DNA from: Planctomycetes bacterium syqfu
GTDB taxonomy: Bacteria > Planctomycetota > Phycisphaerae > Phycisphaerales > Phycisphaeraceae
Direction of reading: 5' to 3'
NCBI GenBank assembly: GCA_020974905.1
Contig: CP087563.1
Coordinates: 4,650,001-4,714,000 of the forward strand
Length of the DNA: 64,000 nucleotides
The notes under the pieces are model-generated. The model searched no databases and was not told the origin of the DNA. It was given only the letters and a program-made list of their open reading frames with translations. Position numbers and translations under genes: made by a program. Positions 2,551 through 49,832 of this stretch are shown here, one piece after another. Position 1 is the first letter of the stretch, and each line of letters begins with the position of its first letter.

Positions 2551-5500
2551 TTAATTAATTTTCACAGTGACGATCTCAAACGGCTTGAGGGTCAGTGACA
2601 CCTTGTTGTCGATGACGGGCAACTCCTCGCCGTCGGTCCATTCCATGAGGTTGGTGACGGTGACCTTGCTGCCAGCCGGGACGCTCAGGGTTGCCCTGCC
2701 GCGATAGCCGTGGGATTCGACGATGCGGGCGATCAACGCGTCGGACTTCTCAGCGCGTTTGAGTACTTCCAATGTGGCATTTCTTGATTCGAGTTTCACC
2801 GGACTTTCCAGCTTGCCAGCATATCCTGCAAACATCACCGGAAATTGATTCAGACAACGCGCCTGCTGCATGACATCACTGCGCACCAGGTCATCGACGT
2901 GTGGCAGGAGACTGTAGGTAAACGTATGTTCACCCATGTCCGCATCAGGGTCCGGCCAGGTGGGAGACCGCAGCAAGGTTAATTCCAGCGTGTTGTCCAG
3001 AATACGGTGACCGTATTTACAGTCATTGAGCAATGCCACGCCAAACGTCGGCTCGGACATGTCCACGTATTTGTGACAGGCCACTTCGAACCTTGCCATA
3101 TCCCAACTGGTGTTGGTGTGTGTCGGGCGTTTGAGATAGCCGTACTGGATATCGCAACTCGCTTCGGTCGTGCTGATGGTGGTGGGGAAAGCGACTTTCA
3201 AAAGCTTGTGTTGTTCAGCCCAATTAACCTTGGTTGCAAAGTCCAGACGTTTACCCCCGCCCCCGAAGGTTTCCAGGGTGATCGTCTGCTCGATGGTGGA
3301 GGCTTCACCGAGGGTTGCAGTGATGCTTAGCACGCTACGCACCGGGCCTTGCTCAAGTTTGATGGATTGGACGGTGGTCGTGCCGACATATTCGGTGCGG
3401 TGATACGCGTCGATATCCCAGGCGTCATAGGCCGTCGGGCGGTCGTTGTACAAGCTCAACACGTTACCTGCTTCACGCAGGGCTTCGATGTCCGCCTGCT
3501 TGTCATGCGCACTGATGAGTTGGCCGTCCTTGTTAAACACATACTTGACCACATCGTTTTCAAGCACCAGCTCGTCGACGGTTTTGAGTTGCTTGCAGTC
3601 ATCAACCTTTTTAAGTTCGACACTGCTCAGCGGGGCAATGTTCAACTGCACGACGACGCGATCACCTTCACGCTGCGAACTCATGGGCAAGCTGTCACAG
3701 GTCGCACCACCCCAACCTTCGGGAAGCGTGACCACGCCCGACCATGCGTGAGATAGCGAGTTGAAATACACCACGGAATCGGCGTCAGCGGTGAGTAACT
3801 TCGGTGCGACATCCGCCTGCATCTCGTCAAGCTTGGCAAGCATGTCCGCGTGTTCCTGATGGGTCACCTGATACACGTTGTTAATCGAGGAACCGGGGAT
3901 GATGTCGTGGAAATGATTGAGCAAAAGCGTCTTCCACAGCTTGTCGAAAGTCTCGATCGGGTAGCTGTCAACACCCGCTGCAGTGCAGATGATTTCCATC
4001 TCGCGCAGGCGGTGTTCGAGTTGACGGTTTTGCTTTTTGACCAGGGCCTGCGTGGTGAGTGTGCCACGGTGATATTCCAGATACAACTCGCCGACCCACT
4101 TGGGCAGTTCGTGTTTGATGTCGTGCAATGATTCGAAGAAGTTCTCCGCCGTGTTGAACTGCACACGCGGGCAACCTTCCAGGTCCTTCATGCGCAGCGC
4201 ACGTTCGATGTGATCCGGGCGCGGCCCACCACCACCATCACCAACGCCGAATAATGACATGATCTTGCTGGCAACGGCTTTTTCTTTGAAGCGTTGTTGA
4301 GACCCAATCAAACTTCCGGGGGTCATGTCGGAGTTGTATGTGTCTTCGGGTGGGAAATGCGTGAGGATCTCCGTGCCGTCGATGCCTTGCCAGAAGAAGG
4401 TGTTGTAGGGGAAGGTGTTGAACTGAGACCAACTGATTTTTTGGGTAAGGAATGTATCCACACCTGCAAGATGCATGATCTGTGGCAGGGCAGCTGAGTA
4501 ACCAAACACGTCGGGAATCCACAGGTTGGTCACATCTTTGCCAAACTCATCCATGAAGAAATTCTTGCCATGAATGAATTGGCGGACCAGTGATTCACCA
4601 TTGGGAATGTTGCAGTCCGATTCAACCCACATCCCGCCCTGGAGTTCCCATTTGCCGTCTTTAACCGCCTGTTTGATGCGTTCGAAGAGTTCGGGCTGAT
4701 CTTCCTTGACGAACTGATAATGCTGTGGCTGGGAGGCCCCGAAGATGTAACCGGGATAGTCCTTGATGAGTTTGATCTGGTTAGCAAAGGTGCGCACACA
4801 CTTGCGTCGACCTTCGCGGACCGGCCAAAGCCAGCCGGTGTCGATGTGAGCGTGACCGACCGCGTAAACATCCATCTCCGAAGCGCTGGTTTTCAGAGAC
4901 ATGATCGGCTTGAGTGATTCGCGTGCAGCTTCAAACGCCATCGGGTCTGAACCGAGAATGTCACAGCAATCCTGAAGCGCTTTGAAAATCTTGGCACGTC
5001 GGACCGAGCCTTCATGCAGACCTTCGTAAAGGTTAAACATCAGCTTCATGTCCAGTGACAATTGGAAGGCAGCATCGTTGAAGACTGCCAAACGAATCTT
5101 TTCAACGGTTCCTTCTCGTTCACCAAAACGCGTCGGCTCGTTGCGGTCGATGTCCTTGCATTTCACATCATCCAACGGCGTGACACCGAAGTAACCAGCA
5201 ACGGAACCTTCAAGCCAGAACTCGAGTTTTTCGCCTGCTTTTGCAGACTTGGTCAACGGGACATACTGGCGGATCGCCCGGTCATCCCAGATGGATTTGT
5301 AACCGATGTGCTGATCCACCGTGCCGTCTGCGTGGTAGACACAGCCTTCGGTGGAGATGTTGATCCACAGCTGGATTTCCTTGCCATCGAAGTCCGCGGG
5401 GACCTCGCCGGTGATGTGAAACCAGACCAGGTCCCAGCGATTGCCCCAGGTGTCACCTTCCTTGATGGGCTTGTATTCACCGCCGAGTCTGCCGTCGAAG

Positions 5501-5643
5501 TTGGTGCCTTCGATGGGCTTGCCGGTGTTCCAGTAGGTGACATTCAGTGGGAGGGTCTTACCGATGATCGCCAGCTCGACACGTTCGATCGCCTGGGAGA
5601 TGCGGTTGAAGTACAGCTTTTCGTGACGTGGGTTGTGGTACAT
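2551..5643 (-). CDS. Alpha-mannosidase, glycoside hydrolase family 38
   Basis: A retaining alpha-mannosidase of about 1030 residues, probably cytoplasmic because no signal peptide is seen, that would trim mannose from imported glycans. An N-terminal beta domain is followed by the catalytic domain with the zinc-binding GHAHIDTGWLW motif (about residue 264), the nucleophile Asp in WIPDVFGY (about 378) and the later zinc histidine in NHFHDIIPGSS. The C-terminal third is the family's beta-sandwich region. The start at 5643 (MYHNPRHEKLYF) is preferred; a start at 5673 adds ten residues. Upstream lie a sigma70-like promoter and a LacI-type palindrome, and a (broken) LacI gene follows downstream, which suggests a mannose-glycan catabolic unit. 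Confidence 0.93.
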   Translation of the reverse strand: MYHNPRHEKLYFNRISQAIERVELAIIGKTLPLNVTYWNTGKPIEGTNFDGRLGGEYKPIKEGDTWGNRWDLVWFHITGEVPADFDGKEIQLWINISTEGCVYHADGTVDQHIGYKSIWDDRAIRQYVPLTKSAKAGEKLEFWLEGSVAGYFGVTPLDDVKCKDIDRNEPTRFGEREGTVEKIRLAVFNDAAFQLSLDMKLMFNLYEGLHEGSVRRAKIFKALQDCCDILGSDPMAFEAARESLKPIMSLKTSASEMDVYAVGHAHIDTGWLWPVREGRRKCVRTFANQIKLIKDYPGYIFGASQPQHYQFVKEDQPELFERIKQAVKDGKWELQGGMWVESDCNIPNGESLVRQFIHGKNFFMDEFGKDVTNLWIPDVFGYSAALPQIMHLAGVDTFLTQKISWSQFNTFPYNTFFWQGIDGTEILTHFPPEDTYNSDMTPGSLIGSQQRFKEKAVASKIMSLFGVGDGGGGPRPDHIERALRMKDLEGCPRVQFNTAENFFESLHDIKHELPKWVGELYLEYHRGTLTTQALVKKQNRQLEHRLREMEIICTAAGVDSYPIETFDKLWKTLLLNHFHDIIPGSSINNVYQVTHQEHADMLAKLDEMQADVAPKLLTADADSVVYFNSLSHAWSGVVTLPEGWGGATCDSLPMSSQREGDRVVVQLNIAPLSSVELKKVDDCKQLKTVDELVLENDVVKYVFNKDGQLISAHDKQADIEALREAGNVLSLYNDRPTAYDAWDIDAYHRTEYVGTTTVQSIKLEQGPVRSVLSITATLGEASTIEQTITLETFGGGGKRLDFATKVNWAEQHKLLKVAFPTTISTTEASCDIQYGYLKRPTHTNTSWDMARFEVACHKYVDMSEPTFGVALLNDCKYGHRILDNTLELTLLRSPTWPDPDADMGEHTFTYSLLPHVDDLVRSDVMQQARCLNQFPVMFAGYAGKLESPVKLESRNATLEVLKRAEKSDALIARIVESHGYRGRATLSVPAGSKVTVTNLMEWTDGEELPVIDNKVSLTLKPFEIVTVKIN

Positions 5644-5689
5644 CGTGCGTTTCCGTAGCGTATGTCCTACCACATTGGTAAGAACGGAT

Positions 5690-5703
5690 TACAAACGTTT
5701 GTA
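5690..5703. promoter_or_regulatory. LacI-type operator palindrome upstream of the alpha-mannosidase
   Basis: TACAAACGTTTGTA is a perfect 14-bp palindrome with the central CG typical of LacI/GalR-family operators. It lies about 16 bp downstream of the predicted -10 box and so would cover the transcription start. The nearest candidate repressor is the LacI gene at 1424-2385. Confidence 0.6.
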
Positions 5704-5719
5704 TTTGATCAAGACCGAC

Positions 5720-5748
5720 AGTATCCCGTGAAATTGGATTCAAATCAA
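5720..5748 (-). promoter_or_regulatory. Sigma70-like promoter for the alpha-mannosidase
   Basis: Read on the minus strand: TTGATT (5748-5743), a 17-bp spacer, then GATACT (5725-5720). The position relative to the operator palindrome and the start at 5643 is sensible. Confidence 0.5.
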
Positions 5749-5846
5749 GAGCGTAAAGTTGTTTTACGGGTGTAAAGTTGGATTGTGATGCGGTTTTGCT
5801 GGCGTGATTTTGGTTGGGGTTCCAAGATAAAAAATTTCAATGCATT

Positions 5847-6145
5847 TTTACCGCAGAGGCGCAGAGGCGCTGAGGACGCAGAGTTCAAACAGGATGTTTA
5901 TTCTTCTTTTGATTCAGGCGAACCGCGTCGTATCGACGCGGGATTGAGCGAAGCTCAAATACTGTTTGATGATGTCATTTGAATTTCGACTTCGTCGAAT
6001 CCCGCAGTGACACACCGCGGCTCGCCTGAATTGCATTGTTCTCTCTTAACTCTGAGTCTTCTGCGTCTTGTAAGTTGTTTTTCAAGCGATTGGTTGTTGT
6101 TATAAAAAAGCGAGGAGCCTTTGTGGGCTCTGCGGTGAAAATGTC
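5847..6145. repeat. Family D inverted repeat (CCGCAGAGGCGCAGAG type) with a family C repeat nested inside
   Basis: The left arm (5847-5886) is rich in GCAGAGGCGCAGAG; the right side (6050-6145) carries the complementary CTCTGAGTC..., CTCTGCGG and the AAATGTCTTG tail seen in other copies. A separate palindrome (family C) occupies 5913-6031. This fills the gap between the mannosidase and the dehydrogenase; no gene is visible. Confidence 0.65.
5913..6031. repeat. Family C inverted repeat (TTCAGGCGARCCGC ... GCGGCTCGCCTGAA)
   Basis: The arms begin TTCAGGCGAACCGCG and end CGCGGCTCGCCTGAA, with internal GGGATTGAGCGAAGCTCAA and a complementary TCGACTTCGTCGAATCCCGC segment. Related copies occur near 32.7, 33.6 and 35.5 kb. 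Confidence 0.75.
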
Positions 6146-6150
6146 TTGTT

Positions 6151-7578
6151 TCACATACCCGAAACCCCCGGGATCAGGCGCAGGATACGGTCCGGGCCGT
6201 TGGTTGCGATGTAGATCGCGCCGTCAGGTCCGACTGCTGCATCGCGGACGCGGCCCATGCGTTTGATGATGACTTCCTGGTCGGTGACTTCTTCACCTTC
6301 AATCTTGACGATGCGGACTTCCTGGAATGCCAGCGCGGTGACGAGCAGGTGGTTCTTCCATTTGGTAAAGAGATCACCGTTGTAGAACTCGATTCCACAG
6401 ACCGCGATGGAGGGGGTCCAATGGATGATGGGATCGACCATGCCTTTCATGGTGGTGAAAGGGGTGATCGGCGTGCCGTTGTAATTGATGCCGAAGGTGA
6501 CTTCCGGCCAGCCGTAGTTGGCGCCTTTTCGGATGAGGTTCAGTTCATCCCCACCGCGCGGGCCGTGCTCGGATTCCCAGACTCTGCCGGTGACAGGGTG
6601 GACGGAGAGGCCTTGGGGGTTGCGATTACCGAAGGTGTAAATGGACTTGATGGCATTGGGTTCATTGACGAATGGATTGTCAGCAGGGATCGAGCCATCA
6701 CGGTTGATGCGATGGATTTTGCCGTTGGGCTTGGTGATATCCTGTGCCTCGTTTTGGTATCCACGTTCACCGATGGAGAAGTAGAGATAACCATCGGGGG
6801 GAAAGACGATGCGCGAACCGTAGTGATGTCGGGTGCGTTTGTAGAGATCGTGAGGTGCTTCAAAAAGAACCTGTTGATCGGTCCATTGGTGGTCGACGAT
6901 TTTGCCTCGAACCACGCGCGTCATGGCAAGGTTCTGATCATCAAGCTTGTGTGAGTAGGACAAATAAACCCATTGGTTTTGCAGGTAATCCGGGTCGACG
7001 TTGACATCGAGCATACCGCCCTGGCCGTTGTGCCAGACTTCGGGGGTGTTGGCAATGGGGCGTGGGTCGAGGATACCGTTTTTGACGATGCGCAGTCCGC
7101 CGGGGCGTTCGGTGATGAGCATGGTCATCGGATCAAGGAAGCAGATGGCCCAGGGGATTTTCAACCCCGCAACCCACTGTTCGACTTTAAGCGTGTAGTC
7201 ATTGCCCTTGAGGGTTGCGACGGTCTGGCCGACCTTGGGCTCAGAGCCGGTGGGGTTGGCCTGATAGTCCTTGACGGTTTTCTGAATGTAGTTGACTAAA
7301 CCGTTGATCTGTTCGCTGGAGAAATTGCCATGCGCCGGCATGCCACGGTCCGCGATACCATCACGGATGACTTTGGCCATCGACGCACGATCCTTGGCAA
7401 ACTCCCATTGATCATCAAGCATGCTCTTGGCATTACCACCCTGAAGATTCAGCCCGTGACAGGCAGCACAGTTTTTCAAAAACAGTTGGGCTGAGTTATC
7501 CAGATCCTGTGCGAAAATGACTGTAGGGCTGAGAAAACACAGGACAACAAACCATTTCATGAGGTGTTTGGGCATCAT
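6151..7578 (-). CDS. Secreted PQQ-type sugar dehydrogenase with N-terminal cytochrome c domain
   Basis: Probably oxidises aldoses in the periplasm and passes electrons to its own haem. A signal peptide (residues 1-23, ending VIFA) is followed by a cytochrome c domain with the haem-binding CAACH at 37-41 and a likely axial Met in GMPAHGNF. The rest is a six-bladed glucose/sorbosone dehydrogenase propeller (KIPWAICFL, GQGGMLDV, NRNPQGLSVHP, SEHGPRGGDELN, GANYGWPEV). These motifs match the soluble aldose dehydrogenase family. PQQ use is inferred from the family, and no PQQ synthesis genes are nearby. The second ATG, at 7575, is an equally possible start. Confidence 0.88.
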   Translation of the reverse strand: MMPKHLMKWFVVLCFLSPTVIFAQDLDNSAQLFLKNCAACHGLNLQGGNAKSMLDDQWEFAKDRASMAKVIRDGIADRGMPAHGNFSSEQINGLVNYIQKTVKDYQANPTGSEPKVGQTVATLKGNDYTLKVEQWVAGLKIPWAICFLDPMTMLITERPGGLRIVKNGILDPRPIANTPEVWHNGQGGMLDVNVDPDYLQNQWVYLSYSHKLDDQNLAMTRVVRGKIVDHQWTDQQVLFEAPHDLYKRTRHHYGSRIVFPPDGYLYFSIGERGYQNEAQDITKPNGKIHRINRDGSIPADNPFVNEPNAIKSIYTFGNRNPQGLSVHPVTGRVWESEHGPRGGDELNLIRKGANYGWPEVTFGINYNGTPITPFTTMKGMVDPIIHWTPSIAVCGIEFYNGDLFTKWKNHLLVTALAFQEVRIVKIEGEEVTDQEVIIKRMGRVRDAAVGPDGAIYIATNGPDRILRLIPGVSGM

Positions 7579-8080: not shown

Positions 8081-8154
8081 AAGAGCCGCGCACACAGTAA
8101 GCGGTTTAAATCAAGTGCGTGTCAAGTCATCCGCTTACTGTGTGTGCGGCTCTT
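8081..8154. repeat. Family E palindrome, 24-bp arms
   Basis: AAGAGCCGCGCACACAGTAA and following bases (8081-8104) are repeated in reverse complement at 8131-8154 with one mismatch. A half copy lies at 13011-13034. Confidence 0.85.
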
Positions 8155-8182
8155 GATATTGAATTGATCGTGATAAACGTGT

Positions 8183-8659
8183 TTACGCCTGTTGCCAGTT
8201 CAGACATCGGCCGGTGCCTTTGCACAGATCGCATTCGGGGATTTCGCCTTCGACACATTCCATGCATTCGCCGATGCGGTTGTCGATGACCTGGTGAATC
8301 AACGAACTCAAACCCAGCGGGGCAGTGACGAGGTATTCAATCCCCGGGTGCTTGGCAGCTGCTTCGGCGGTGATTGCGGGAATGTCTTCATGCCAGTGTT
8401 TACCGGGGAGTAAAAAGTACGGCATGACCACGACCCGCTTGGCACCCTTTTCCACACACCGATCAAACGCGGTGGGGATCAGAGGCTCGGCAATTTCCAT
8501 GTGGGCTGGCTCGACAATCTGCCACTGCGTCTGCTGGCGGTACGCTTCGACCACCTGCAACAACATCGCGTTGGACTCTTCACGACGTGAACCGTGGTCG
8601 ACAACAATAATGCCGGTGGTGGCAACATCGGTTTGGGCGGGTGTAGTGCTCATGTCCAT
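8183..8659 (-). CDS. CbiX/SirB-like sirohydrochlorin chelatase with cysteine-rich C-terminus
   Basis: Small single-domain chelatase that would insert cobalt or iron into sirohydrochlorin for cobalamin or sirohaem. It has the family's metal-site histidine in IIVVDHGSRREESN and the second conserved segment VVMPYFLLPGKHWHEDIP. The C-terminal tail has the pattern C-x2-C-x7-C-x2-C-x5-C, which could hold zinc or an iron-sulphur cluster. No other tetrapyrrole genes are nearby, so metal choice cannot be decided. The start at 8659 gives a 158-residue protein; an ATG two codons later (8653) is possible. A start at 8713 adds an unlikely extension. Confidence 0.85.
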   Translation of the reverse strand: MDMSTTPAQTDVATTGIIVVDHGSRREESNAMLLQVVEAYRQQTQWQIVEPAHMEIAEPLIPTAFDRCVEKGAKRVVVMPYFLLPGKHWHEDIPAITAEAAAKHPGIEYLVTAPLGLSSLIHQVIDNRIGECMECVEGEIPECDLCKGTGRCLNWQQA

Positions 8660-8834
8660 ATCATAGCCAGCTTTGGAATCATTCCAAGTTGTAAACACCC
8701 AAAACAAACACAAAACATGTTACTCTGTTTCGGTACTGCAACGTTTGAGAATCACAAAGGTATTCTTGAACAACGCGCAACCGGCGAGTGATCCAGTGAC
8801 AGATCGTCGGATGCATCAATATGGAGCTTGATAC

Positions 8835-10529
8835 ATGAATCGAATTTGGAAGTTTGGGTGGACCTGTTTTCTGACTTTGGGTTTGGCATGGCAAGTTGCC
8901 AACGCACAAACGCAGGTGGTTTTGGAGCATGTTCCGGCTAATACAGATCGTGTCTTTGTCTTTGCTTCATTGCAAGGCTTGTCCGATGACCTTCTCGCGC
9001 TGGGCAATCTCACGGGCATGCAGCAATTGGTCCCACCCAACCCATTGATGATGATTCAGGCCGAAAGTGGCCTGATGCTCGGTGTTGATGCCAACGCACC
9101 AACCGTGATCATGCTCAATGGCAAGATGCCCATGCGTCCGGGCGAGGATGATTCGGTGATGTCCATGCTCCTGCCGATGACCGCCAAAGATCAGTTCATG
9201 CAGAATTTTGCTGACATCAAAGTCGATGAGCATGACGGCGGCATTCAGTCCGCCAATCTCAAAGGCGAAGTCATCTACTTCAAGCCGGTCACCGACAAGT
9301 ACATGCTCATGTCCGACAAGCTTGAACAGGTATCCAGCTACAAAAAACCGGCTGCGGATCACTGGCTCAAACAGCAGGGCAAAATCTGCATCGACCAGAT
9401 GACCAAAAGTGATCTGGTCATTCTCTATAGTCCGGATGCACTGAAAAAAGACGTCCCCAAGAAATCACCTTTGCCCTTGCAGGTTCAGACTGCTGATCTG
9501 ATGAAAGATGTCCAGGGCGCTGCAGCCAGTTTCACGGTCAATGCCGATGGGATTGACCTTGGTTTTGCCATGCAGTTCAAACCCAACACCTCCTGGCAAT
9601 CCTTCTTTGCCAAGGCGCCAGCACAGAAAATCTCCGGCTTTGAGATGATGCCCGATCGTGCCTGGATTCTGGCCTCCAAGGTGATGCTCTCACATCTGAA
9701 TCTCCAGCAGTTTTCCGACAACATCATCGCAAGCCTGCCTGAAGATCAGAAACCAGTCGTTGACACCAAGCCGCTGTTTGAAGCGATGTCCGGTTATGAG
9801 AAACTCGAACAGATGCTCGTTGCTGATGCCCAGGGACAATGGAAAGTCGTCAATGCCTTGAAGCATCCGGGATACACCAAGGAGATGTTCGCCCAGTTTC
9901 AACAGTCACTGACGGATGCGCAAAAGCAGTTGGCAGACAATCCCGATGTACCGGTGACTTTTGAAAACCAAGCCGATGCATTGGACATCCCCGGCGCGTT
10001 GGGTACGCATGTTCTGACGATCAAGAGCAATGACGAAATGATCAATCAAGGCATGATGCGCAATGCAGGCACCGACGCCTTGAAAGTCTATTTTGCCTAC
10101 ACCGACAAGGGCGTGGTCAGCGTGATGGGGGATGAGGATCTGCTTAAGCGATCTGTCGACGCGATGGCAGCAGACGAACTGGAGACTGCCCTGGGTAAAA
10201 CGACGCAGGTTCTGCAGGTGAATCTCCCCGAGAACTGTTTTGCAGCAGGCTACATGAATCTGACGCAGACCATTCGCTTTGTTCAGACGATGATGCTCAA
10301 GAATCCGGCGACCGCACAGTACGCAATGATCCTGAGCATGATCCAGTTGCCCGAAGACATGCCCCCACTGGTTGGGAACATTGCCAACACCGACGGCGGT
10401 GTGCGCTTTGGTGTGTTCCTGCCCAGCAAGACCGTGTCGATCACCGCCCAGCGCGTTAAGCAACTATGGATGATGATGGCGCCCATGATGAATCCCCAGC
10501 AGCAGGAACCGGACGTGCAGATTCAGTGA
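8835..10529 (+). CDS. Secreted protein of unknown function (564 aa)
   Basis: I do not recognise this family. A clear signal peptide (residues 1-24, MNRIWKFGWTCFLTLG...VANA) indicates export. The mature part is methionine-rich, has no cysteine pairs or obvious catalytic motif, and looks like a soluble alpha/beta protein with repeated LPxxM segments. Two stretches (around residues 30-110 and 380-470) both concern short hydrophobic runs followed by acidic turns, which could mean duplicated domains, but this is weak. It stands alone, diverging from the chelatase and followed by a family B repeat and a strong terminator. Confidence 0.75.
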   Translation: MNRIWKFGWTCFLTLGLAWQVANAQTQVVLEHVPANTDRVFVFASLQGLSDDLLALGNLTGMQQLVPPNPLMMIQAESGLMLGVDANAPTVIMLNGKMPMRPGEDDSVMSMLLPMTAKDQFMQNFADIKVDEHDGGIQSANLKGEVIYFKPVTDKYMLMSDKLEQVSSYKKPAADHWLKQQGKICIDQMTKSDLVILYSPDALKKDVPKKSPLPLQVQTADLMKDVQGAAASFTVNADGIDLGFAMQFKPNTSWQSFFAKAPAQKISGFEMMPDRAWILASKVMLSHLNLQQFSDNIIASLPEDQKPVVDTKPLFEAMSGYEKLEQMLVADAQGQWKVVNALKHPGYTKEMFAQFQQSLTDAQKQLADNPDVPVTFENQADALDIPGALGTHVLTIKSNDEMINQGMMRNAGTDALKVYFAYTDKGVVSVMGDEDLLKRSVDAMAADELETALGKTTQVLQVNLPENCFAAGYMNLTQTIRFVQTMMLKNPATAQYAMILSMIQLPEDMPPLVGNIANTDGGVRFGVFLPSKTVSITAQRVKQLWMMMAPMMNPQQQEPDVQIQ

Positions 10530-10540
10530 TGTCATCGAAC

Positions 10541-10611
10541 AAAGCCGTGTCCCTCCCGGGGCGCGGGTTGTAACGACACAAACACCCGTGACTCAGGAGA
10601 GTCACGGCTTT
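10541..10611. repeat. Family B inverted repeat (AAAGCCGTG ... CACGGCTTT), copy 1
   Basis: Arms AAAGCCGTGTCCCTCCCGG and complementary GAGAGTCACGGCTTT flank CGCGGGTTG/CACCCGTGA inner arms. It starts 12 bases after the stop codon of the secreted protein. Other copies also lie just after genes. Confidence 0.8.
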
Positions 10612-10634
10612 GAAGAACAAAATACAAGACATAA

Positions 10635-10679
10635 AAAAAACCGCAGATCTCAGTTACGAGATCTGCGGTTTTTTATTTT
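10635..10679. terminator. Bidirectional intrinsic terminator
   Basis: CCGCAGATCTC and GAGATCTGCGG form an 11-bp stem with a 6-base loop, flanked by A and T runs on both sides. It serves the secreted protein gene (+) and probably pgk (-). Confidence 0.9.
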
Positions 10680-10703
10680 GAGTCGTCGTACAACGCTCCA
10701 TTT

Positions 10704-10788
10704 GTCATTCCCGCGCAGGCGGGAATCCAGTGGTATTCAGTGAACACTTGCAAGTTCCACTGGACTCCCGTCTGCACGGGAGTGACGG
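10704..10788. repeat. Family A REP pair, copy 2
   Basis: GTCATTCCCGCGCAGGCGGG and the complementary CCCGTCTGCACGGGAGTGACG flank the conserved CACTTGCAAGTTCCACTGGA spacer. Confidence 0.85.
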
Positions 10789-10843
10789 AAAGTTGTGTCG
10801 GTTGCTCGGTATCAATTCACCAACACAGTGCAACATGCCAGTG

Positions 10844-10856
10844 AAACTTCCGGGGG
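10844..10856. repeat. Recurring 13-mer AAACTTCCGGGGG
   Basis: An exact 13-mer located directly downstream of the pgk stop (read on the minus strand as CCCCCGGAAGTTT). The same 13-mer occurs exactly at 4310-4322 and 61726-61738. Confidence 0.6.
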
Positions 10857-10865
10857 CCGGGGGGG

Positions 10866-12059
<1,194 letters not shown>

Positions 12060-12187
12060 GGGAAGACTCCTTTGTCTTTGAGTTGATGTTTCGAACCGTA
12101 ACGCATTGGGTGGTTCGGAGGGACATGATAACGAATATCCCTATAAAAGTCGCGTCAGTCTTGTGTTGTGAATAAAACGTTAGTGCA

Positions 12188-12215
12188 TTGACTTGCATGT
12201 TGAGCGTGGTACGAT
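12188..12215 (+). promoter_or_regulatory. Sigma70-like promoter for the SYLF lipoprotein gene
   Basis: TTGACT (12188-12193), a 16-bp spacer and TACGAT (12210-12215). It leaves a leader of about 110 bases before the start codon. Confidence 0.45.
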
Positions 12216-12329
12216 CGTTTGTTGAACACGGAACCACAGGCAGGCGTAACGGTTACGTTTGTCTGATGACCGGGCAGAGAGAACTACCTCAACACAGGGT
12301 TCCGTGTAGAAAAAGCAAGGAGTTTCAAA

Positions 12330-43872: not shown

Positions 43873-43876
43873 TAAG

Positions 43877-43949
43877 CTGGCCTGGAAGGACTTGAACCTT
43901 CAACCTCCTGAACCAGAATCAGGCGTTCCGCCAATTGAACTACAGGCCA
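43877..43949 (-). tRNA. tRNA-Gln (anticodon CTG)
   Basis: All four arms fold: acceptor TGGCCTG/CAGGCCA, D stem GTTC/GAAC, anticodon stem CCTGA/TCAGG with loop TTCTGGT (anticodon CTG), T stem GAAGG/CCTTC with loop TTCAAGT. The discriminator base is G; the CCA end is not encoded (next bases CTTA), so CCA must be added by an enzyme such as the one at 22528-23799. Confidence 0.95.
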
Positions 43950-46206: not shown

Positions 46207-47649
46207 TTACTGGGCAGCCGGTTCCGTTGTGGTGGTATCCGTAGCAGCCGGTTCGGGTGCAGGTGTTGCATCCACGCCACCATCCGGTTGGGTCACCTTG
46301 AGAATGTAATTGGCGATGGCGGTCAAGCGCTCTTCACCCACATGTCCCATGGCAGGCATTGGCGCGGGGAACTGCTCAGCTCGTTTGCGACCTGGCGCCT
46401 TGGCCCATTCGACGATCCCCTTGGGATTGCCCTTGTAAATCTGAGCGATTTCCATGAGCGTCGGGCCGGCAAGGACGGTGTCTTTGGCGTGGCAGGTGGC
46501 GCAGATCGTGTTAAAGAGTTTGGCACCGTCGAGCACCATGCCGCCCTCGGCTTCTTCGAGTTGCTTGAGTTGCCAGGCGGCATCACGCGATTTGACGTAG
46601 ATGTCTGTTTCATACTCCATGTCCAGCGTATGCGACATGAGTGTTTTTTCACGGTACATGTGTCGGCCTGTGCCCATACACAAAACGGTGACCGATAGCA
46701 GGATCACGATCGGCTTGAACATGTGGCCGATCACTTCGTCCTTGGCTTTGAGTTCCAGCGTCAGGAGAATCACCGCGATGACCGCAAAGAGAATGCCGAT
46801 GACCAGGACGACATTCATCGCATCCATGCTTGAACTGTTGGGAAGCGTCAGCCAAACCAGCGGGCCGATGGCAAATTGGAACACGGTGAACGCCGCAGCC
46901 ATCATGTAAAACCGGCGCTTGAGTCCTGCACGGTTGATCTCGGTGAAGCGATCTTCGACTTTAAAGGACGGCAAGCCGACATACCAGACCATGAACAAAC
47001 CCGTCACCGCCAGCGAGGCATTAAAGAAATGCAGGAACCGCGAGATGACGTTGTTGTTGATGAACATGGCAGAGAAAAAGCCCTGCACCTGCCCCCACTT
47101 TTCCGGGAAAAGCATCAGGTTAATGTTGGTCAGAAACACAAACGGGATGCAGAACAGCAGCAGCAGCGCGAACACGACAATGCTGTGATGCAGCTTGCGA
47201 TGTGCCTGCATGAAGTCGCTATGCCAGGTGTATTTGTGCAGGTACAGCAGCAGGAAGGCGGTGATCGCGGTGGGGACAATACCGATCCACACATAGCCGG
47301 TCAAGGCGTTGGCGGTGTAGAAGTAGACGGTGTAAATCACATTGATCGCAAGCAGCGGCGCAACACCCATGACCACAGCCATGGACTTGTTGACGGTGAT
47401 TGTCTTGGCAATTTCGTAAGCAAGGATGTCATCGTCGTTCGAGCCCTTGAGAATGCTACGGCCCTGGAAAAAGGCGGTGAGAATCGTCCCGCCGAGCATC
47501 AGGTTCACAAACAGGATATGCACCAGGAACATGGCAATGAGCACGCCCACAATCAACTCACGCGGAGCAGGCAGGGGCAACGGGATGTCATGCGGTACTG
47601 GCGTTTGCGTTTGTGCCAGGGTTATGAGATTCAAAAGCGTTGGCGTCAT
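46207..47649 (-). CDS. Multi-helix membrane protein with C-terminal cytochrome c (bd-oxidase-like partner subunit)
   Basis: 480 residues: about eight membrane helices beginning APRELIVGVLIAMFLVHILFVNLMLGGT, with conserved His in FLVHIL and in LHKYTWHSDF...HRKLHH, then a soluble domain with haem site CATCH (383-387), a probable axial Met in MPAMGHVGEE and an acidic Pro/Thr tail. The helix layout recalls a CydA-type subunit, and the gene sits directly downstream of a clearer CydA homologue with the same cytochrome c fusion. I read the pair as one respiratory complex taking electrons from cytochrome c. No CydB-like gene is present. That function is inference. Confidence 0.72.
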   Translation of the reverse strand: MTPTLLNLITLAQTQTPVPHDIPLPLPAPRELIVGVLIAMFLVHILFVNLMLGGTILTAFFQGRSILKGSNDDDILAYEIAKTITVNKSMAVVMGVAPLLAINVIYTVYFYTANALTGYVWIGIVPTAITAFLLLYLHKYTWHSDFMQAHRKLHHSIVVFALLLLFCIPFVFLTNINLMLFPEKWGQVQGFFSAMFINNNVISRFLHFFNASLAVTGLFMVWYVGLPSFKVEDRFTEINRAGLKRRFYMMAAAFTVFQFAIGPLVWLTLPNSSSMDAMNVVLVIGILFAVIAVILLTLELKAKDEVIGHMFKPIVILLSVTVLCMGTGRHMYREKTLMSHTLDMEYETDIYVKSRDAAWQLKQLEEAEGGMVLDGAKLFNTICATCHAKDTVLAGPTLMEIAQIYKGNPKGIVEWAKAPGRKRAEQFPAPMPAMGHVGEERLTAIANYILKVTQPDGGVDATPAPEPAATDTTTTEPAAQ

Positions 47650-47692
47650 CTGTAGGGTTATCCTTGAGTCATTGGCTGTTTGTTGATTTCAT

Positions 47693-47845
47693 TTTTAACG
47701 CGAAGGTCGCGAAGGCGCAAAGGACGCGAAGAAAAATCAGTTCAATGAATTTTGATCTCTCTGTGATTGACATGCATCGCAACACCTGTGTGTTAAAAAT
47801 TTCTTTGTCTTACCTTCGTGATCCTCGTGCCTTCGTGTTAATAAA
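47693..47845. repeat. Family D inverted repeat between the two oxidase-type genes
   Basis: TTTTTAACGCGAAGGTCGCG and TTCGTGATCCTCGTGCCTTC-type right arms; the inner CACAGAG segment is mostly lost. It sits inside the putative operon. Confidence 0.75.
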
Positions 47846-47860
47846 CATAAACGCACGTTT

Positions 47861-49315
47861 TCACGGAGTTGCATTTGAAGTGTCATCACCACTTGCTGAT
47901 ATTTGCACTGTCTTTTTCGGTGAAGCATCCGGTGAAATGACAATGCCACCCGACTGCATGCCCGGTAGCGTTTCACCGGTTTGCTTGATGTGCAGGATGT
48001 AGGCGACGAGCGCTTCGAGTTCTGCATCGTTACCCGGGAAGGGGGGCATGAAGGGACGGGCGTTGTGCATGCCCTGAATGTATGCCTTCATTGCTGTTGC
48101 ATCCCACGGCTTATCCGCACCGTAGAGATTGTTGAACTTGGGGACCATGCCGTTGACGCCCTGCGTGGTGTGACATCGCGTGCAGGCAATGTTGAAAACA
48201 TCCTGCCCCGCGATGACCTTGTTGTCTTCGGTCACTTCGCGGACATGGGTATAGGTTGCATACTTGAGCATGCCCTCGGATTGAAGCAGCGGGTAATCCT
48301 CCACCCGGATGCCGTTGGCATACATGTAATTGCCGATGACATACGGCTTGCGGATGAACTCGCGGACACGTTCGAATTGACCGAGCAAGGCGGTGATCAA
48401 CACAAACGGGATGAGCAATGCCAACCGGGGCATGAACCTGGGTTTGAGCAAGCCGATGGCAAGCGTTGCGACCACAATGATGAAACTCACCCACGTGATC
48501 CATAGCAAATCATTGGACTTGGCAGCCCACTGCTGTGTCGCGATGGCAACGTCGTAGTTGCTCTGCATCATCGTCGGGATCCGGTCGTGATACCACAGAG
48601 CACCCACCATCAACAGTGGCAACCAACACAGACTCCAGATGGCAACAAAGCGAATCGCCTTGTTGAGAAACTCCCGATCCTTCTTGACAAAAAAGATCAT
48701 CAAAAACCAGGCAAACAAACCCGCACCGATCATGGCTAGCGGTGTACGGAAGGCAAGCTGTGGTAAGTACAATGGATTGAGTACGCCGGTCACCAAACCG
48801 GGGGTCGTCGTCCAGTCTCCGGGGTCCATCATGAAGCCGAGGATGGCAACGATGATCGCCATCGTGCCCCAACTGGCAATGGACAGCGTCAAGCCAATGC
48901 GAATGTGGTTGAGTTTGGCTTTGGGGGAATGCTGCATCTTCGGCCAAAGCAGGTAGTACGCCAGGATCAGCGAGACTTCAATGACGAAGATGATCCACTC
49001 GGTAAACCAACCCCAGAAGAACACGCGGATCAGCGAGCCGATCGCATAGGGATTGATCAGTGAGGTCGACAGCCATATCCCCACGCCGGTCAGCGCGCCT
49101 GCGGTCGTGGTGATGATGAAGCAGACGAACAGAATCTTGTGCGCCAGTGTGTCCCATTTCTTCTGGCCGGTCTTGTAACCGAAATACTCCATGAGCGTAA
49201 TCAGGGGCATCATGCCCACCGCCATGGGATGGTTAATCATCACGTGAATGATGGCAATGACCGCGATGAGCATGCGGTTACCCGCGTCGTCCATATGGAA
49301 GATCGGAAAATCCAT
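47861..49315 (-). CDS. CydA-like (cytochrome bd superfamily) subunit with C-terminal cytochrome c
   Basis: 484 residues from the ATG at 49315. The membrane part follows the CydA plan: NRMLIAVIAIIHVMINHPMA with the haem-ligand-like His, MEYFGYKTGQKKWDTLAHKI, then TGVGIWLSTSLINPYAIGSL and FFWGWFTEWIIFVIEVSLIL with the conserved Glu. The long quinol-binding Q loop is absent. A cytochrome c domain follows, with CTRCH (378-382) and an axial Met in MPPFPGNDAE. Such cytochrome c-fused CydA relatives form non-quinol branches of the superfamily, so cytochrome c rather than quinol is the likely donor. It leads a two-gene unit. Whether O2 or another acceptor is reduced is not known. Confidence 0.78.
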   Translation of the reverse strand: MDFPIFHMDDAGNRMLIAVIAIIHVMINHPMAVGMMPLITLMEYFGYKTGQKKWDTLAHKILFVCFIITTTAGALTGVGIWLSTSLINPYAIGSLIRVFFWGWFTEWIIFVIEVSLILAYYLLWPKMQHSPKAKLNHIRIGLTLSIASWGTMAIIVAILGFMMDPGDWTTTPGLVTGVLNPLYLPQLAFRTPLAMIGAGLFAWFLMIFFVKKDREFLNKAIRFVAIWSLCWLPLLMVGALWYHDRIPTMMQSNYDVAIATQQWAAKSNDLLWITWVSFIIVVATLAIGLLKPRFMPRLALLIPFVLITALLGQFERVREFIRKPYVIGNYMYANGIRVEDYPLLQSEGMLKYATYTHVREVTEDNKVIAGQDVFNIACTRCHTTQGVNGMVPKFNNLYGADKPWDATAMKAYIQGMHNARPFMPPFPGNDAELEALVAYILHIKQTGETLPGMQSGGIVISPDASPKKTVQISASGDDTSNATP

Positions 49316-49612: not shown

Positions 49613-49654
49613 CCTTACCGATTAGAGTAACTCAAGCAATCAAACGCCACCTTC

Positions 49655-49745
49655 CGTCACTCCCGCGCAAGCGGGAGTCCAGTGGAATATGCAAGCGTCA
49701 TCAGCATGCCACAGGATTCCCGACTTCCGGGGCGCGGGAATGACG
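49655..49745. repeat. Family A REP pair, copy 7, variant apex
   Basis: CGTCACTCCCGCGCAAGCGG on the left. The right arm reads GATTCCCGACTTCCGGGGCG before CGGGAATGACGG, the same ACTTCCGGGG apex as at 21803. Confidence 0.8.
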
Positions 49746-49832
49746 GAAGATAAAGACGACATGGAGAAGAATGACTTGTATTGTGCTGACAACGTTGCTG
49801 TACGATGCGGAAACGTCATCGCAAACACATAA

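Follow-up and report, generated by a model that had tools for sequence, protein, structure and literature searches.

Background

The cytochrome bd enzymes that have been studied in depth are quinol oxidases, and the cytochrome c oxidases studied in depth are copper proteins. Within the bd superfamily, the families called OR-C and OR-N were reportedly named by Murali, Gennis and Hemp in 2021, and an archaeal CydAA' is said to consist of two CydA paralogues that associate with each other, to oxidise quinol and to have no c domains. We describe here two adjacent genes, called A and B, in a stretch of 64,000 nucleotides (the window; positions 4,650,001 to 4,714,000 of contig CP087563.1) from Planctomycetes bacterium syqfu. 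Judging from sequence and predicted fold, we consider it probable that together they encode a cytochrome c:O2 oxidoreductase that belongs to the cytochrome bd superfamily, is a heterodimer and does without copper.

The idea of a bd enzyme fed by cytochrome c is already in print, and the window pair is a member with a well-defined two-subunit form. OR-C is one of three families of the superfamily, which are set apart by their subunits and by their sites for quinol and haem (PMC10839748, from the part of that article available). The bd-like oxidases of Nitrospira and Nitrospina, which belong to OR-N, are believed to receive their electrons from cytochrome c and to function as CydAA' pairs, as far as the available text of the source goes; the Nitrospina protein lacks the quinol residues and has 14 helices, and that text does not mention a c fusion, whereas A and B of the window have eight helices and a c domain each. 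The protein that comes closest by description is the "cytochrome cbd" MCA1187 of Methylococcus capsulatus, which is 28.3-fold up in low copper and was detected by mass spectrometry only in copper-limited cells (PMC4831470, here and below from the available part of the article). It has eight helices and a C-terminal CxxCH, keeps H19 and E99 as well as another Glu of helix 4, and does not conserve H186, M393, the quinol loop and helix 9, and its neighbour genes have been proposed to form a complex (PMC4831470). Subunit A has the features by which cytochrome cbd was described, i.e. eight helices, CxxCH, H19 and E99 kept, and H186, M393 and quinol loop lost. The second subunits seem to differ, as the neighbouring MCA1186 is not among the c-type cytochromes in the available part of the published table and M. 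capsulatus has a separate dihaem c4, MCA1185 (PMC4831470), while B of the window has a c haem of its own. In this M. capsulatus looks like the more distant kind of pair that we call group 1, where A has a c domain and B has none. The window type is called group 2.

Compared with canonical CydAB (E. coli bd-I), A has the fold and the active-site residues in common but is without the b558 ligands and the quinol loop, a CydA paralogue, B, stands where CydB would be, and c haems have been added. An association of two CydA paralogues would be shared with the archaeal CydAA'. An earlier note on this DNA, made from the letters alone, held that branches of the superfamily with cytochrome c fusions are known from surveys yet hardly studied in biochemistry. 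No biochemical study of an A-B pair was found in the open-licence PubMed Central (PMC) literature, as far as the available parts of the papers go.

Two CydA relatives with c domains

The earlier note had placed two adjacent genes with c domains of the CTRCH and CATCH type at 46207-49315. Both open reading frames are there, A first on the minus strand and then B after a gap of 211 bp (Table 1), and Pfam finds the C-terminal c domains, PF13442 in A (E=5e-10) and PF00034 in B (E=2.4e-6), both of class I cytochrome c. Of the eight to nine membrane helices that the earlier note gave, eight were counted in each AlphaFold model (single-chain models, mean predicted local distance difference test score 77.8 for A and 84.4 for B), and a ninth was not seen. 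Lysine and arginine are fewer in the loops on the N-terminal side (7 against 12 in A, 6 against 14 in B), a bias that points to the N-terminus and the c domain of both proteins being outside; the maturation of c-type haem requires that haem c domains are on the outer side.

The membrane part of A has no match in Pfam or NCBIfam and A none to PF01654 (CydA), B reaches PF01654 at E=0.18 only, and phmmer gives a weak match of A to the CydA chain 5doq_A of G. thermodenitrificans (E=0.0035), so that the family identity rests on profile-profile comparison and on fold. Profile against profile, A matches CydA at E=1.4e-9 and CydB at 0.006, and B matches CydA at E=2.5e-7 and CydB at 0.03. In VIA-align the best fold match of both is CydA, with Z 28.4 over 316 residues and a root-mean-square deviation (rmsd) of 3.1 for A, and Z 25.9 over 308 residues and rmsd 3.5 for B. 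All ten PDB matches of A at Foldseek E <= 0.001 are bd oxidase chains (E 1.4e-5 to 6e-4; Z 25.9-28.4, 304-324 residues, rmsd 2.8-3.6), and the top eight matches of B (from 1.5e-3) are CydA-type chains (Z 23.5-25.9, 303-312 residues, rmsd 3.3-3.8), the chain letters and lengths of the PDB entries serving to assign them to CydA. Foldseek and VIA-align also matched alternative complex III and polysulfide reductase subunits, far below CydA.

By profile and predicted fold, both A and B are CydA relatives, as had been claimed before. B, for which the earlier note considered an unrelated membrane family as the outcome that would count against it, falls in the CydA family by profile, Foldseek, tree and fold alike. 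The earlier note had also seen no CydB, and the host genome has no match to PF02322 (CydB) or to PF01654, by which only canonical subunits are excluded, as A itself escapes PF01654; B is nearer to the CydA profile than to that of CydB and would stand in for the CydB of canonical enzymes. The membrane cytochrome c of PuuD-type urate oxidase was considered as an identity and rejected, there being no such Pfam match and the folds matching CydA (PMC4562309, available part).

Table 1. Features of the A-B locus and its surroundings, in positions of the window
Feature	Position	Strand	Remarks
Gene A	47861-49315	-	484 aa (amino acids); P0001; membrane protein with C-terminal cytochrome c domain
Gene B	46207-47649	-	480 aa; P0002; membrane protein with C-terminal cytochrome c domain
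A His24	49244-49246	-	E. coli CydA H19, active-site haem ligand; 33/33 rows
A Glu106	48998-49000	-	CydA E99; 33/33 rows
A Glu113	48977-48979	-	CydA E107; 33/33 rows
A Glu319	48359-48361	-	CydA E445; 33/33 rows
A haem c motif CTRCH	48170-48184	-	residues 378-382; C378 and H382 in 33/33 rows
B His44	47518-47520	-	CydA H19; 32/32 rows, also 16/16 group 1 B rows
B His207	47029-47031	-	CydA H186 (b558 ligand); H 21, E 10, F 1 of 32 rows
B Met325	46675-46677	-	present exactly when residue 207 is His, 38 rows with data
B His330	46660-46662	-	aligned with CydA E445; His or Gln in group 2, Glu in most group 1 rows
B haem c motif CATCH	46489-46503	-	residues 383-387; C383 and H387 in 32/32 rows
Inverted repeat in A-B gap	47691-47800	.	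17-nt (nucleotide) arms, 82% complementary
tRNA-Gln (CTG)	43876-43949	-	sole tRNA in window by ARAGORN

Residues of the two subunits

The counts for A refer to 33 aligned rows, and those for group 2 columns to the 24 A rows of the tree alignment. The residues of A that correspond to H19, E99, E107 and E445 of CydA are invariant (Table 1), and so is Arg322, which lies near Glu319 and corresponds to R448 (33/33); we take E107 to be a residue of the proton path and E445 to be a ligand of haem b595. The roles of the E. coli residues are given partly after PMC4831470 and otherwise as general background. Met423, the presumed sixth ligand of haem c, is present in all 33 rows. At the position of the b558 ligand H186, A has Phe in 31 rows and Leu in two, the position of M393 has Met in none of the 24 group 2 rows, and the quinol loop is gone, with K252 and E257 falling in gaps in all 24, which agrees with the earlier observation that A keeps the layout of CydA without that loop. 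The residues for haems b595 and d, on which the earlier note had staked its reading of A, are present by profile as well as by multiple alignment. On this evidence A keeps the residues of the di-haem site for O2 and of the proton path, and is without the b558 ligands and the quinol loop.

In B, both E99 and E107 are missing from the multiple alignment, and for this reason B is not a second catalytic copy. The His that corresponds to H19 is kept in all 39 B rows of the tree (23 of group 2 and 16 of group 1), and the quinol loop is missing in these rows too. Met431, the presumed sixth ligand of its haem c, is found in 31 of 32 rows and CxxCH in 37 of 39, the exceptions being L034, where B is incomplete at a contig end, and the Agrobacterium locus L082. 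Position 207 varies together with position 325: in a larger set of 39 rows, one of them gapped, the 38 with data have His and Met in 27, Glu and Tyr in 10, and Phe and Leu in one. His330 was tried as the partner of His207 and rejected, since His (23) and Gln (4) occur there alongside His207 without any tracking, whereas Met325 tracks without exception. The three Glu/Tyr rows that are present in the tree share one clade, so the loss of the pair may amount to only about two events.

From this pattern, His207 and Met325 are likely to be a His/Met site for a b haem that has been lost in some lineages, perhaps twice. The alternative that survives best is that B has only a structural part to play, as CydB does, and holds no b haem besides its c haem, and that the variation is neutral packing. 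The joint exchange of His207 and Met325 for Glu and Tyr in 10 rows suits this, as does the scarcity of His at position 207 in group 1 (2 of 16 rows), and we give it a real, if lesser, chance of being right; but the H19-like His in every B row of the tree would be odd without a b haem, and so would the Glu at the E445-like position in 12 of the 16 group 1 rows, a position that has His or Gln in the 23 group 2 rows. A structural B would leave the function of the complex unchanged and is thus a detail inside the proposed cytochrome c oxidase, so our confidence in it does not add to that in the other explanations.

Distribution and history

A scan of genome contigs found 37 loci, 35 of the window type and two (L048 and L049) distant. 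B stands directly after A in all 32 loci where A is complete, the other three of the 35 ending inside A. Among the window-type relatives, the identity is 46-84% for A and 40-78% for B, and the records come from Phycisphaerae (Planctomycetota), Bacteroidota, Verrucomicrobiota and gammaproteobacterial methanotrophs (L016, L017 and L042 in the A family). Shared identity and order across phyla make it clear that the pair is not due to chance.

The pair is uncommon in the host phylum, where 20 of 246 genomes match the alignment of A at E <= 1e-10; six belong to the window type, G063 and G145 match only via long proteins without the c motif, and the others have distant relatives. A close A occurs in 3 of 61 genomes, mostly of the same family or order (G000, which is the host, G002 and G003). 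Two genomes of the phylum have long CydA-like proteins without the c motif (L103, 699 aa, and L104, 601 aa), which may be of the OR-N kind known from Nitrospira. A second pair, of group 1, is present in the host (L050 6850-9409, at about 654.8-657.4 kb of G000:C1); it adjoins an apparent resistance-nodulation-division (RND) efflux operon, recognised by eye and from the likeness to an RND-like protein in L016.

In a tree of 95 rows, made with a quick IQ-TREE run and Shimodaira-Hasegawa-like approximate likelihood ratio support without bootstrap, all A sequences form one clade (support 97) and all B sequences another (99), within which group 2 A has 98, group 2 B 91, group 1 A 81 and group 1 B 84; some branches are long, among them those of the group 1 B sequences L099, L048, L083 and L084. 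The separate clades imply that the duplication into A and B predates the split of the groups and that the pair has been inherited together. A new point here is that A and B, as their sequences indicate, are a conserved heterodimer that arose before the two subgroups did.

Electron supply

Two group 1 loci, L048 from an acidobacterium (3278-7422) and L119 from a genome of the host phylum (8146-12250), have the gene order B-Rieske-cytochrome b-A, and no Rieske or cytochrome b match was found in the other loci searched. A Rieske protein and a cytochrome b inside the operon tie this type of pair to the branch from quinol to cytochrome c. A frame of 866 aa in L119 and L097 was tried as a fusion of cytochrome b and oxidase and rejected, as its first ~400 residues are read-through and the cytochrome b is encoded on that strand in a different frame.

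The host genome has no cytochrome b match. As the search gave no bc-type cytochrome b, alternative complex III is the candidate for the oxidation of quinol, and an NrfD-family protein about 6 kb from a COX1 gene would fit an alternative complex III that feeds cytochrome c. A protein of the haem-copper family is present in all 33 genomes searched, which fits the pair being a back-up enzyme and proves nothing.

Copper genes around the pair

We surveyed 141 neighbour genes of 27 window-type loci. Among the 25 most frequent of the 184 Pfam families matched, AraC regulators (9) and SCO1/SenC (7, from four loci) were the commonest, and MauG (3) and MbnP (2) were also found. Within the stretch covered around each pair, relatives of copper-handling proteins (SCO1, MbnP, MauG, YtkA) occur in 8 of 37 loci (L020, L022, L028, L029, L038, L040, L042 and L045), all outside Planctomycetota, a count that includes self-hits, as the queries came from three of the eight (L020, L042, L029 or others), and several loci that end at contig ends. 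This test was redone by tblastn, the picking of open reading frames having missed genes in G+C-rich loci (A in L110, L111 and L112). MbnP lies inside four loci where 0.11 would be expected (P about 3e-6), and for SCO1 the figures are four and 0.19 (P about 3e-5), both probabilities assuming uniform placement and rounded genome sizes, and that for SCO1 being too favourable, as the estimate used 20 chosen of 36 genomes with all four positive loci included. A link to copper is absent from the data on the host's own lineage and is seen only in other phyla. Together with the B-Rieske-cytochrome b-A operons, the copper-gene neighbourhoods are additions to the published picture.

On a Methylosinus plasmid (L084, 8983-13925), a group 1 pair lies beside methanobactin genes; with it, in the stretch that separates these genes from feoB, are a small c-type cytochrome and a two-component system. 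The pair on the Agrobacterium plasmid (L082) is likewise followed by such a two-component system. In Bacteroidota a protein of ~125 aa is found near the pair (cluster C2, nine loci; e.g. L022 4484-4855), often beside SCO1 and AraC genes, and the one member searched had no Pfam match.

The surroundings in the window

The gap between A and B is 201 bp in L013 and 223 bp in L014, the nearest relatives, and between -8 and 20 bp in 22 of 32 pairs. The inverted repeat in the gap of the window (Table 1) is perhaps a small inserted element. A second short inverted repeat lies upstream of A (49651-49749) and, we assume, resembles a repetitive extragenic palindromic (REP) element or a miniature inverted-repeat transposable element (MITE). 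Scans of the pair for promoters and terminators were at chance level, with 5 found of each against 4.0 and 4.5 expected. The six neighbours searched in the window (AsmA/DUF748-like, sulfatase-modifying-factor-like, an alpha/beta hydrolase, a flavin adenine dinucleotide (FAD) oxidoreductase, a LacI regulator and a glycosyl hydrolase) have no evident functional link to the pair.

Function of the pair

A complex of the bd superfamily with two related subunits and cytochrome c as its electron donor, as the earlier note suggested, is in our opinion the best reading of the sequences and models. In such an enzyme, quinol would be oxidised by another complex, for which alternative complex III is the candidate in the host, and the electrons would pass via a c-type carrier to one or both of the fused c haems and from there, without a b558 step, to the b595/d-like pair of A, where O2 would be reduced with protons from the cytoplasm. 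B would, besides replacing CydB, offer the second c haem, and in its His/Met forms, that of the window included, it may bind a b haem that acts as a relay. The pair probably serves, in several phyla, when copper for the haem-copper oxidases is short, which for the host is only a guess.

Several points weigh against this reading. No activity, spectrum or haem content was found for the window pair or for any member of group 2, and E99, E107 and E445 would also suit the reduction of nitric oxide (NO) or peroxide chemistry. With CydA chains of known structure A shares only 12-16% of its residues and B only 10-14%, B has no Foldseek match at E 0.001 (the best is 1.5e-3), and CydB chains are also among the Foldseek matches of both. 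The likeness to MCA1187 is one of description. The B of the Agrobacterium locus L082 is without the c haem, and the design can hence do without the c domain of B. A haem-copper oxidase is present in the host as well, and tblastn for copper genes was negative in the whole window, in the Phycisphaerae loci L013, L014, L015 and L034 and in the group 2 loci L108-L112.

The earlier note left the acceptor open, and it is indeed not fixed by sequence, but the conservation of the active site for O2 in A, together with the copper-limitation data on the relative MCA1187 (PMC4831470), favours O2. A detoxifying, cytochrome c-dependent reductase, i.e. the same complex with NO, peroxide or another small oxidant as acceptor, would be compatible with the sequence and with the haem-copper family protein that every one of the 33 genomes already has, and a protective role against NO and oxidative stress is ascribed to canonical bd oxidases in the part of the literature available. 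We find it unlikely nonetheless, as A keeps the residues of the O2 site and of the proton path, as no nitrogen-oxide family is among the 25 most frequent neighbour families, and as it is low copper that induces the published relative (PMC4831470). A quinol oxidase with its quinol site elsewhere, for instance in B near His207 and Met325, the c haems being a side branch or an exit to soluble cytochrome c as in a quinol:cytochrome c reductase, is in our view very improbable: a b558-like His/Met pair is indeed found in 27 of the 38 B rows with data, and A and B have some likeness in fold to alternative complex III membrane subunits (Z 15-18), with which they have the helical bundle in common, but the pair is lost in 11 of the 38 rows with the rest of B unchanged, the quinol loop is missing in the A and B rows of the tree, and the operons with Rieske protein and cytochrome b in two relatives would make a quinol step redundant.

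Conclusions

Going beyond the proposed cytochrome c:O2 oxidoreductase itself, we put forward, as a tentative picture that is less likely than not to hold, a copper-sparing terminal oxidase with two c-haem entries, built on an ancient heterodimer of CydA paralogues with a dispensable His/Met b haem in B. It could be a module of two genes that has spread between phyla and that keeps the cytochrome c branch of bacteria with bc1 or alternative complex III running when the haem-copper oxidases are short of copper. The copper-gene neighbourhoods in some phyla predict that the pair is induced by copper shortage, and the A-B pair, found from Phycisphaerae to flavobacteria and methanotrophs, is a small and definable target for testing a bd-type cytochrome c oxidase. 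A working enzyme of this kind would be a third design of terminal oxidase.

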